Of a stretch of DNA of 22,121 bases, positions 9,897 to 12,755 are shown in pieces. How positions within the stretch are numbered: position 1 is the first letter of the stretch; the number at the start of each line of letters is the position of its first letter. A program made the translations under genes and the position numbers. Source of the stretch: a virus; the IMG/VR virus record IMGVR_UViG_3300032322_001445, positions 1 through 22,121 of that record; one strand, given 5' to 3'. Below the pieces are notes generated by a model, which saw only the letters and a list, made by a program, of their open reading frames with translations, had not been told where the DNA came from and ran no database searches.

Positions 9897-9931
9897 AAAA
9901 AAAAAACGGAGTTGTAAGCTCCGTTCTTCGG
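9897..9931 (-). terminator. Terminator-like hairpin just after promoter (attenuator candidate)
   Basis: On the minus strand the stem AACGGAG / CTCCGTT (7 bp; arms 9919-9925 and 9905-9911) with a 7-nt loop runs into ten consecutive T. This is a textbook intrinsic terminator shape. It lies only about 20 nt after the predicted start site of the 9941..9956 promoter and before the adaptor gene. The 11-mer CCGAAGAACGG (9921-9931) overlaps the 5' arm and could form a small competing hairpin. A second copy of the arrangement precedes the portal gene. Confidence 0.7.
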
Positions 9932-9956: not shown

Positions 9957-10377
9957 TCTTTGAATTTCTCAAAGCTTTCACAGTATCTTCTAGTTTATCG
10001 TGGATTTTGTATGATATTACATCATCATGTCGGTCTACGCCCACAATGTCATCAAATTCATTAAGTTTTCCTGCAATGTCTTCGAGTACAAGCGGTAGCA
10101 TTTTCTCTTGTAGAGCAGAACTCTTTTGATTAAGAGCTTCTAGTTCGTCTTTAAGTTGTTTTGTTTCAGCTTCAACCTCGTTCTTGTAGTCGTCAAAAGG
10201 CTTTCGTAGCTCAATCATCTTTGTTTCGATTTCATTAAATCGAGCAATCTTTGGGTTAGCTTCTTTTTGAAGGTTTTGGATTTCTTCATAAAAGTATTTT
10301 ACCTTTTCATCTGTTACTGGAACAAATCGTGGGTTTGAGTAATTTTCTTCTGTTAGAAATTTTGAATCAATTTGCAT
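9943..10377 (-). CDS. Coiled-coil protein of head module
   Basis: 144 aa from ATG at 10377 (MQIDSKFLTEENYSNPRFVP). This start sits in CTATATG, like other starts here, and leaves an 11-nt overlap with the glycosyltransferase. An upstream ATG at 10413 would add 12 residues but overlaps more. Residues of about 20-100 are strongly heptad-like and charged (EIQNLQKEANPKIARFNEIETKMIELRKPFDDYKNEVEAETKQLKDEL), predicting a long coiled coil. A small mixed domain follows, with VGVDRHDDVISYKIHDKL. No enzyme motif or membrane segment is present. Lying between capsid and adaptor genes, it may be a minor head protein, a head-completion factor or an assembly chaperone. The function is unknown. Confidence 0.7.
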   Translation of the reverse strand: MQIDSKFLTEENYSNPRFVPVTDEKVKYFYEEIQNLQKEANPKIARFNEIETKMIELRKPFDDYKNEVEAETKQLKDELEALNQKSSALQEKMLPLVLEDIAGKLNEFDDIVGVDRHDDVISYKIHDKLEDTVKALRNSKKSMV

Positions 10378-11425
10378 ATAGTGTTTTAAAAGCGTCTTTC
10401 CATCTTTGGACATTATCTTTTATATTATAGTTTTTAATAACATAATCATAGGCTTTTTGTGCCATATCTTCTCTTAAATCTTTATCATTAAGAAGTCTTT
10501 GTACTTCTTCGTTCCATTTAGTGTTATCTGTGATAACTACCATGTACTTACTATCTTCTGGGTTTTGTTGGTATGGTGAATCGTTTGTATCAAATCCTTG
10601 TGCAATCACTGGTATTTTAAGCAGTGAGGCTTCTAGGAATTTAAGGTTTGATTTACAACGATTAAAGTATGAATCATTGCGAGGGATTATCACTAAATCA
10701 AGTTTGAGCTTTGATAGCGTGTGATAATAACTGTTCATGTTTACAAATGGTTGCCATTCTACGTTAGGTAGACTGTTCCAAAAGTCGTAATCTTCTTTGT
10801 AAGCTCCATTAATACTTCCTGATTGATGTTTGATACCGAATACAACTATTGTTGCGTACTCTGCTATCTTTCGTATCTCGTCTTTAATGTGGTTGTAGTC
10901 ATTGTTTGATGTTACAGAACCAATGAATCCTACTCGTGGTCTTCCTGTGTCGTTGACACGTTTAGTTTGTTCGTCAAGAGGGTCAATAAAGTTTGGAATC
11001 ATCACCACATTTTTATTGATAGCACTAAATTCTTCAGCTAGTAAAGGTGTCGAGGCGATAGCCATGTCTGCTATCTTTAATGTTTCATAAAGATAGTAGT
11101 TCATCTTCTTTGCTATTTCTCGTTGTTTGTCTGTCGGTAGCATTGAGAGTGGGACACCTTTGTCTGGTAAATAAGTGTCATCATTTTCAAACACAATCTT
11201 CTTCCCTTTTAGTTTGAGTGCCTTTGCTATTTCATAGCGTACAGGCTCATTAGGACGCTGTATAACGATTATATCTGCTTCCATAGCCTGTTGTATCAGT
11301 TGCTCTGGTTTATAGTCTTTACGGGCAAAATCAAGCACCACAGACATATCTCCATAAATACCTGGAAGATAACACCTGTAATAATAGCAACCGTCATATG
11401 CACCTGGTAGAAAAAATACTTTCAT
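10367..11425 (-). CDS. GT-B fold glycosyltransferase (GT4-like) inside head module
   Basis: 352 aa. An N-terminal Rossmann-like half (MKVFFLPGAYDGCYYYRCYLPGI; ADIIVIQRPN; KKIVFENDD; ADMAIASTPLLAEEF; NVVMIPNFID) is followed by a second half that starts RPRVGFIGSVTSNNDY. It then shows the nucleotide-sugar-binding signature CKSNLKFLEASLLKIPVIAQ (about residues 257-278), with the Glu that usually binds the sugar nucleotide. It ends with the usual crossover helix (LRNDKDLREDMAQKAYDYVIKNY-type). This is the GT4/group 1 plan. Donor and acceptor cannot be read. It sits between the major capsid protein and the adaptor, so a virion protein is a plausible acceptor; host surface glycan is the alternative. 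An extended -10 (11441..11446) ends 15 nt before its ATG and may give it a separate transcript. Confidence 0.8.
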   Translation of the reverse strand: MKVFFLPGAYDGCYYYRCYLPGIYGDMSVVLDFARKDYKPEQLIQQAMEADIIVIQRPNEPVRYEIAKALKLKGKKIVFENDDTYLPDKGVPLSMLPTDKQREIAKKMNYYLYETLKIADMAIASTPLLAEEFSAINKNVVMIPNFIDPLDEQTKRVNDTGRPRVGFIGSVTSNNDYNHIKDEIRKIAEYATIVVFGIKHQSGSINGAYKEDYDFWNSLPNVEWQPFVNMNSYYHTLSKLKLDLVIIPRNDSYFNRCKSNLKFLEASLLKIPVIAQGFDTNDSPYQQNPEDSKYMVVITDNTKWNEEVQRLLNDKDLREDMAQKAYDYVIKNYNIKDNVQRWKDAFKTLYAN

Positions 11426-11760
11426 TTTCGTAGTAGCTCTATTATAGCATCTAATTTAGTATTTGTTTCTTTTATTTCGTTTGCCATTTCCTCTTGTTTC
11501 TTTTCAAGTTCTTGTACTTTACTAGGTACGACTGTTCGGTCTGGTGCATTATCATCTACTTTTTGCTTACCAATAGCCGTCATTGCTTCTTGTTTATCTT
11601 TGAGAATTTGAATATATCTATTCCACGCTTCTTGATTTACTATTTGTCGTTTTTGAACAATCCATCCCCCTTGTTTGTCATCATACCAATCAATTATATT
11701 TCCTTGTGTGTCTTTTACTAATTTATTCCTCGACATTTTTGAGGCTACGTTTAATGTCAT
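11422..11760 (-). CDS. Small protein with C-terminal coiled coil
   Basis: 112 aa. The N-terminal part contains NKLVKDTQGNIIDWYDDKQGGWIVQK, which looks like a small beta motif. Residues of about 75-112 form a leucine/isoleucine heptad coiled coil (VQELEKKQEEMANEIKETNTKLDAIIELLRK). The ATG at 11760 is in the AT-rich TATATATGA context; an internal ATG at 11736 (MSRNKLV) is a weaker alternative. It follows the capsid gene after an 86-nt gap filled by a structured element (11780..11839) and overlaps the glycosyltransferase by ATGA. It could be a capsid-binding minor protein. I do not recognise the family. Confidence 0.7.
   Translation of the reverse strand: MTLNVASKMSRNKLVKDTQGNIIDWYDDKQGGWIVQKRQIVNQEAWNRYIQILKDKQEAMTAIGKQKVDDNAPDRTVVPSKVQELEKKQEEMANEIKETNTKLDAIIELLRK
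11441..11449 (-). promoter_or_regulatory. Possible extended -10 promoter for glycosyltransferase
   Basis: TGCTATAAT lies 15 nt before the glycosyltransferase ATG, inside the last codons of the preceding gene (Asp-Ala-Ile-Ile). It matches the TGnTATAAT pattern used elsewhere in the window, but it is constrained by coding sequence, so it may be coincidental. Confidence 0.4.
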
Positions 11761-11779: not shown

Positions 11780-11839
11780 GTTTGTACTCTTTACATCTTG
11801 CCCCCATCGTAAAGAGGTGAGGGGGCAAGAGCTACAAAC
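11780..11839 (-). ncRNA. Structured RNA element after capsid gene (crossing stems)
   Basis: In 60 nt of the minus-strand transcript there are three perfect complementary pairs. P1 is GTTTGTA / TACAAAC (11839-11833 with 11786-11780). P2 is CTTGCCCCC / GGGGGCAAG (11829-11821 with 11805-11797). P3 is CTCTTTAC / GTAAAGAG (11816-11809 with 11794-11787). P1 encloses all; P2 and P3 cross. The linker between the 3' arms of P2 and P3 is only 2 nt, so full pseudoknotting would be strained and a P2-or-P3 switch is equally possible. There is no U tract, so this is not an ordinary terminator. It begins 8 nt after the tandem TAATAA at the capsid stop. Confidence 0.65.
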
Positions 11840-11846
11840 TGCGTTA

Positions 11847-12755
11847 TTACGCTACTGTAAGGTGAGATTTGAGCAATACTGCTGCACTATCTCGATTTTC
11901 TACTACACCGTAGCAAATATCCATAGTAACGAGTTCACCAAGATACTCATGTACATATGATTGCTGAACACGAACTCCTTCTGTACCTACGAATCCTGAA
12001 GCTGCTCGAACTGGCATTGAAAGTTTTGCCCAGTGTAGAGCGTCTTTGTGTGCAAGTACGTTCAATCGTGAACCAAGGTCAGAACCAACTGCTGGTGTAA
12101 CAATTACTGGAATACCGTAAAGCATTCGAGTTGGTTGTTTAGCTCGTGGCATTTCACTGTTAGTGTTTTGCCATAGAGTCATCTTGTCAATGTTTCCGAT
12201 TTGTCGGTAGAAAGTGTTAGGGTGGAAAATGAATGCCACATCTCCTGAGTAAATTCCTGGTACTCCTGCGTTCTCAAGTGTTGCAATAGCAGCCAAGAGG
12301 TCAGAATCAGCAATGTTAGTTGATGAAGCACCAAATGAAGTTGAGAATCCTGAGAATAGTGCTGCGATAGCATCATCAAGGTCTTGTGCAACTTCATAAG
12401 CTCCTCCCATAGCAATTTTTTCTTGCAAGTAGTAAGACTTTTTAAGCTGTGCTGCTTCTCGGTCTTCAATTACGAAAGACACTTCTTTCCAAGTTGATAC
12501 AGTCAATGTTTGTTCTGTATAAGTTGGTGAAGAGAGAGTAACTTCAGCGTTGTTAGTCTTTGTGTTTACTGAAAGTGCAGAAAGGTTTGGTGTGTGAATA
12601 AGGTATCCGCCATCTGACAATTCTTCACTTCGGTCAACGAAGAATGAAGCGAGGTCAAGATTGTATCGGAAGTAATCATTTACTTGCTGTCCCCAAACTT
12701 GTGGAATATCCACTGAGAGGTCTGCATAAGTAAATCCGTTTGTTCCTAAAGCCAT
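11847..12755 (-). CDS. Major capsid protein
   Basis: 302 aa, with the features of HK97-fold coat proteins from podo-like phages. The N-terminal segment has DIPQVWGQQVNDYFRYNLDLASFFVDRSEEL. A beta-rich E-loop-like part follows with ALSVNTKTNNAEVTLSSPTYTEQTLTVSTWKEVSFVIEDREAAQ. A spine-helix region contains QEKIAMGGAYEVAQDLDDAIAALFSGF. A P-domain/A-domain part contains VAFIFHPNTFYRQIGNIDKM, then RMLYGIPVIVTPAVG, LNVLAHKDALHWAKLSMPVRAA and YVHEYLGELVTMDICYGVVENRDSAAVLL. Position right after the scaffold gene supports it. No separate protease gene is seen nearby. It ends with tandem stops (TAATAA) and a structured element. There is no SD; the leader holds a 7-bp hairpin. Confidence 0.9.
   Translation of the reverse strand: MALGTNGFTYADLSVDIPQVWGQQVNDYFRYNLDLASFFVDRSEELSDGGYLIHTPNLSALSVNTKTNNAEVTLSSPTYTEQTLTVSTWKEVSFVIEDREAAQLKKSYYLQEKIAMGGAYEVAQDLDDAIAALFSGFSTSFGASSTNIADSDLLAAIATLENAGVPGIYSGDVAFIFHPNTFYRQIGNIDKMTLWQNTNSEMPRAKQPTRMLYGIPVIVTPAVGSDLGSRLNVLAHKDALHWAKLSMPVRAASGFVGTEGVRVQQSYVHEYLGELVTMDICYGVVENRDSAAVLLKSHLTVA

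Follow-up and report, generated by a model that had tools for sequence, protein, structure and literature searches.

The major capsid protein (MCP) gene of an uncultured phage is followed, 7 nt past its stop codon, by a three-stem RNA element in which two of the stems cross each other (positions 11780..11839, minus strand). The element is present in 55 of 74 distinct regions downstream of related MCP genes, where it is kept by pairing alone, its letters being free to change, and it is exchanged there with ordinary terminators. We propose, with confidence about evenly divided, that the element may serve in place of a terminator as a post-transcriptional 3′ boundary of the capsid mRNA, through protection and/or processing.

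The window, i.e., the whole stretch of DNA that was analyzed, is 22,121 nt long (positions 1 to 22,121 of the IMG/VR virus record IMGVR_UViG_3300032322_001445). The minus strand of this 22-kb record carries the structural genes. First come the genes for the small and large terminase subunits, then an ORF of 583 aa in the position of the portal gene, a possible gene for a scaffold and the MCP gene; these are followed by the element, a gene encoding 112 aa, one that is glycosyltransferase-like and a site resembling an intrinsic terminator (9929-9901). The MCP gene (302 aa, 11847..12755, minus strand) matched the PHROG 267 major head protein (E 3e-16), and its distant tblastn matches were cyanophage capsid genes, several of them from the family Saffermanviridae. 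The 112-aa gene (11422..11760, minus strand), whose start codon is ~19 nt from the last arm of the element, gave no match in a PHROG search; a short motif at its N terminus (about GNIID) recurs in the gene found at the same place in many relatives. The glycosyltransferase-like gene (PHROG 7162, 10367-11425) is located inside the structural operon, and similar genes follow in several relatives. Since the site farther down the same strand (9901..9929, minus strand) is an ordinary intrinsic terminator, assigned by sequence match only, the window phage appears to use U-tract terminators elsewhere. Most starts in the window lack a Shine-Dalgarno sequence and are preceded by AT-rich leaders, a possible hint at the host.

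Since the genes here are on the minus strand, the RNA to be read is the reverse complement of the window. In this RNA, the arms follow each other in the order P1a (GTTTGTA, 11833..11839), P3a (CTTGCCCCC, 11821..11829), P2a (CTCTTTAC, 11809..11816, in the P3 hairpin loop), P3b (GGGGGCAAG, 11797..11805), P2b (GTAAAGAG, 11787..11794, 0-2 nt after P3b and directly 5′ of the adjoining P1b) and P1b (TACAAAC, 11780..11786), all on the minus strand. Pairing is exact in each stem: 7 bp in P1 (11780-11786 with 11833-11839), 8 bp in P2 (11787-11794 with 11809-11816) and 9 bp in P3 (11797-11805 with 11821-11829), where 11830/11796 forms an extra pair. P2 crosses P3, and both are enclosed by P1. The three perfect pairs within 60 nt that a sequence-only reading of this DNA had described are therefore exact at 11780-11839, and the coordinates confirm the crossing of one pair by another under P1. 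The same reading had held such an arrangement to be very unlikely by chance. With a topology scanner, the element scored 62.8, and the second-best site in the window scored 45.0; this score was reached in none of 2000 local dinucleotide shuffles (maximum 40.8) and in none of 60 whole-window shuffles (maximum 51.4). The fold of the minus-strand RNA had a z of −3.55, with none of 200 shuffles being as stable.

MCP searches of IMG/VR and of genome contigs yielded 89 loci with sequence beyond the MCP stop, the window included, 74 of which are distinct downstream of that stop. Fifty-three loci scored at least 48.4 right after the MCP stop, and all remaining loci scored at most 40.8. When each of the 53 sequences was shuffled 200 times, no shuffle reached the score of the original in 52 of them, the exception being L121 (1 of 200). 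The 55 carriers are these 53 loci minus L031 and plus L043, L070 and L091, in which a small gene separates the MCP gene from the element. Locus L031 (score 48.4) was dropped because of its weak P1 and an inserted HNH-like gene; this gene lies directly 3′ of the capsid gene, and a terminator-like hairpin stands where the element would be. The extra gene of L043, L070 and L091 encodes ~53-129 aa and is possibly a head accessory protein. Later scans added further carriers, L135 and L138-L140, the latter three with a shorter P2. After the MCP gene of L128, P2 and P3 are visible by eye and P1 is absent, possibly a decaying or reduced form.

The element is specific to its place and orientation. Across both strands of the same loci, ~1 million bases in total, only 20 off-slot hits with a score of at least 46 were found, and five of them correspond to the three displaced elements or to mirror images of these. 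No element was seen at other transcript ends within the scanned loci. Orientation relative to the gene is fixed, with 54 hits on the plus strand vs 17 on the reverse strand, some of which score because of symmetry. A single contig of a metagenome-assembled genome, that of Tenericutes bacterium ADurb.Bin239 (L129), contained a related MCP gene and may be a mis-binned phage; none was found in 278 other genomes of the same order.

Across carriers, the median stem lengths are 8 bp (P1), 10 bp (P3) and 8 bp (P2). P1a and P3a are contiguous in 41 of 53 elements, the gap between P3b and P2b is 0 or 1 nt in 49 of 53, and that between P2b and P1b is 0 or 1 nt in all; both loop gaps (P3a to P2a and P2a to P3b) are near 5. 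Parts of the two loops pair with each other to extend P3 upward (on average 2.22 pairs vs at most 1.96 in 2000 permutations), and double changes in this extension were present in the structure-independent alignment, too. The median distance from the MCP stop to the element is 13 nt (7 nt in the window). On the other side, a median of 6 nt separates the element from the next ATG, with which it is often in direct contact, although this distance varies widely and is ~19 nt in the window.

In slot-normalized stems, every position of P2 and P3 is occupied by 3 to 6 pair types, and the 5′ arms are 35-36% identical between carriers. The scanner itself demands pairing, hence the use of shuffles as a control. 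An independent covariation test was therefore based on 24 carriers aligned with MAFFT without reference to structure. In this alignment, 96.5% of cells pair, and changes on both sides are found in 95 cells vs 27 in shuffled data. The covariation score was 0.454 vs 0.133 for shuffled alignments (0 of 500) and 0.03-0.11 (at most 0.107) for slid ones, with separate contributions from each of P1, P3 and P2. In the covariance check in relatives that had been suggested from the sequence, the refuting pattern, non-compensating changes in both arms of P2 and P3, was thus not seen, and compensation preserves each of the three stems. None of the loop letters is conserved throughout the carriers, and the elements have almost no sequence in common.

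The direction of the mismatches tells RNA from DNA. Inside the helices, G-U pairs outnumber A-C oppositions 59:15 in total (20:0 in P1, 4:0 in P2 and 35:15 in P3), and it follows that selection acts on the coding-strand RNA. It had also been suggested that the stems could act at the DNA level, as a cruciform or as inverted repeats bound by a protein. Stems are indeed inverted repeats in DNA as well, but the G-U bias, most extreme in P1, disfavors this idea, as do the fixed orientation relative to the gene and the lack of any set-wide conserved sequence for a protein to read; we regard it as the most improbable of the explanations considered.

Since P3b and P2b touch, full P2 and full P3 cannot coexist; this exclusion within a standard pseudoknot is what RNA helix geometry would impose. 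The strain that the sequence-only reading had ascribed to the short linker is thus a general property, the linker being 0-1 nt in 49 of 53 relatives. Both a two-state molecule and a partly opened pseudoknot are possible. In nested folding, P1 with P3 is the more stable combination in 52 of 53 cases, the two medians being −20.3 and −12.2 kcal/mol. When P2 is formed after opening ~4 lower pairs of P3, the median gain in stacking is 3.1 kcal/mol before loop costs, a rough estimate.

We compared the carriers with relatives that have a terminator after the MCP gene. Ten relatives carry a U-tract terminator within ~30 nt of the MCP stop, and none of them has the element; a terminator scan of the slot was empty in all 55 carriers, so that no locus combines both states. 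There is no T tract 3′ of the window element either, and the earlier view that it is not an intrinsic terminator stands. On the MCP tree, the terminator label needs five changes, at least four of which are forced by well-supported branches. A locus with a terminator (L103) is sister to one with the element (L104), one carrier (L016) is placed among terminator loci, and terminators are present in the neighbors of the window (L001 and L002). In 5 of 10 terminator loci vs 0 of 51 element loci, an exact TATAAT is located no more than 25 nt from the next start. In terminator loci, TATAAT is often located 6-8 nt before the next ATG, and a −10 box at this distance predicts a leaderless message for the downstream gene. 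In loci L001, L002, L008, L009, L012 and L013, a −10-like box lies 3′ of the terminator, 6-8 nt from the ATG of the next gene, which predicts a leaderless restart. At the element, a transcript boundary is wanted but a restart promoter is not seen, suggestive of read-through with the messages separated post-transcriptionally.

One additional locus, L266, was among the matches listed in a pattern scan. Since the pattern fixed the letters of P1, the likeness of P1 in L266 carries no meaning. Its element is perfect and scores 62.6, the best of 1000 shuffles reaching 39.6. It is located directly 3′ of a PHROG 1357 capsid gene (E 1.6e-46), with a different gene downstream, and no relationship between the L266 and window MCPs was detectable by tblastn. 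In this one case, the element is tied to the capsid gene and not to the downstream gene. The capsid protein of L266 had no match in 392 genomes, in a search run without a positive control. Together with the exchange with terminators and the missing exact TATAAT, the occurrence behind an unrelated capsid gene supports the earlier suggestion of a probable 3′-end or control element for the capsid mRNA.

Annotated phages with relatives of either MCP family have nothing of this kind in the slot. Cyanophages A-4L, Pf-WMP3, TR020 and Lbo-JY12 have a terminator or nothing special after the MCP gene and lack the element, and phages of Bacillus, Paenibacillus, Bacteroides and other hosts with PHROG-1357-type capsids likewise have a terminator or nothing special there. 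Plain terminators occupy the slot in Pony, Pascal, API480 (an annotated terminator), MW202801, A-4L and TR020. Rfam release 15 gave no match at curated gathering cut-offs in the window or in 20 relatives; the best sub-threshold match of the element region was at most 15.4 bits (preQ1-II, cut-off 47). No earlier description of such an element after phage capsid genes was found in open-license PMC papers.

Several other functions were considered and rejected. A frameshift or readthrough signal finds no counterpart in the last 60 nt of any carrier MCP gene, where no in-frame X XXY YYZ heptamer is present, and most carriers have early stops in all frames with no consistent extension. A small self-cleaving ribozyme would be expected to have conserved catalytic core nucleotides, but no such core is common to distant carriers and no Rfam ribozyme matched, and a riboswitch is disfavored by the absence of conserved letters and of an Rfam match. 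PF00940, looked for as a T7-like RNA polymerase could be the reason for a special terminator, had no match in 16 records, but none in any control either, and this negative therefore carries no weight.

The element holds the slot of the intrinsic terminator of other phages and would separate the abundant capsid message from the later genes. RNA polymerase most likely reads through it, because the element lacks a U tract and is not followed by any obvious promoter. In the transcript, P3 would fold first and then be enclosed by P1, with P2a remaining in the P3 loop and P2b bulged out. P2 could then form only with the lower half of P3 open, or instead of P3, and the RNA would therefore have two competing compact states under one closing stem. 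An exonuclease moving 3′ to 5′, or a motor arriving from the 5′ side, would meet a stem whichever arm goes first. The expected outcome is a protected 3′ end of the capsid mRNA, lower expression of the genes beyond and, possibly, cleavage at the foot of P1.

Not all features fit such a boundary equally well. P1b in the largest clade is almost in contact with the start codon of the next gene, a proximity that is superfluous for a pure 3′-end function. P2 adds little to a simple 3′ exonuclease block beyond P1 and P3, so its strict conservation asks for more, and the MCP gene and the element are separated by a small gene in L043, L070 and L091. The closeness of P1b to the next ATG, often in direct contact, would be explained if the element were a translational insulator or switch, with P1b and P2b covering the region before the start and the gene staying silent as long as P1 is closed and the RNA uncut. 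A clean start would be favored, as window genes generally lack a Shine-Dalgarno sequence and several terminator relatives are predicted to be leaderless; further, a viral RNA motif that blocks Xrn1 also stalls scanning ribosomes in vitro (PMC10520033). We nevertheless consider this explanation rather unlikely, given that the start is ~19 nt away in the window and that this spacing is widely variable, that in L266 the downstream gene differs while the upstream one still encodes a capsid protein, and that the exchange with terminators fits a boundary more than the control of one gene. Sequence cannot tell apart an exonuclease block, processing and translational insulation.

The strict either/or with U-tract terminators could also mean that the element is itself an unusual terminator or attenuator, in which the hairpin, or a factor bound to the crossing fold, halts part of the polymerases without a U tract; T7 has a leaky terminator at this very place (PMC5592923). 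Yet the element lacks a U tract, a normal U-tract terminator is located 1.9 kb farther on in the window phage, a hairpin terminator has no need of a conserved crossing stem, and the element is unseen at other transcript ends in the scanned loci, which makes this option slightly less probable still than translational insulation. The paradox that near-zero linkers in 49 of 53 elements forbid full P2 with full P3 while P2 covaries strongly would vanish if the P3 loop (P2a) of one transcript joined the bulge (P2b) of another, in the manner of the phage-encoded GOLLD and ROOL RNAs, which assemble via covarying intermolecular kissing loops (PMC12286853). Such an assembly is very improbable, since the element is a 60-nt part of an mRNA with no indication of a separate RNA gene and since the opened intramolecular pseudoknot, with its median stacking gain of 3.1 kcal/mol, makes a dimer unnecessary.

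Returning to the post-transcriptional boundary, the common explanation for a high output of capsid relative to tail proteins from a single operon is a terminator 3′ of the capsid gene, T7 being an example. Entire groups of uncultured phages repeatedly and cleanly place a crossing RNA fold where this terminator is expected, which points to post-transcriptional marking of mRNA ends in bacteria. Such an RNA is of a kind invisible to sequence-based searches and Rfam, and its carriers form a natural set of variants for testing bacterial exonuclease blocks and RNA switches. We tentatively entertain a broader idea, which is more doubtful than the boundary itself: near-zero-linker stems that force an either/or of two hairpins under one closing stem may be RNA devices of a new, sequence-free class that evolved to replace terminators at the 3′ ends of capsid messages in unrelated phage lineages and that act as a latch, in either direction, against machines degrading or translating the RNA.

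Among known systems, T7 offers a positional parallel. The sole terminator for the T7 RNAP is located directly 3′ of capsid gene 10, and read-through is needed for genes 11 and 12 (PMC5592923). This terminator, T-phi, resembles the element in its post-capsid slot within a podovirus-type gene order and in setting the abundant capsid mRNA apart from read-through genes (PMC5592923). It is, however, a terminator, whereas the element has a crossing stem and lacks both a U tract and conserved sequence. We know of no crossing stem at the RNase cleavage sites of T7 late genes, and cleavage at the present element is a candidate activity only. Those sites are, like the element, intergenic and cut polycistronic phage mRNA (PMC5592923). 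GOLLD and ROOL are also phage-encoded and have complementary loops kept by covariation (PMC12286853), but they are cage-forming separate RNA genes of hundreds of nucleotides, often near tRNAs, in contrast to a 60-nt part of an mRNA.

The xrRNA-D class of exoribonuclease-resistant RNAs, from dianthoviruses, poleroviruses and luteoviruses, is a hairpin that pseudoknots with sequence 3′ of itself, and an open intermediate of it was crystallized; intergenic examples exist, and its stems covary with little sequence conservation (PMC6299227). Similarly, P2a in the P3 loop of the element pairs with P2b, 0-1 nt past P3b in 49 of 53 cases, and covariation backs P2. The two differ in that L1 and L2B of xrRNA-D are >97% conserved while the loops of the element vary among carriers, in that the element has a third stem, P1, closing the fold, and in that xrRNA-D resists Xrn1, a eukaryotic 5′-3′ enzyme, while the host in the case of the element is bacterial. 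Although a member of neither family by the tests made, the element works most like a terminator or an exonuclease block.
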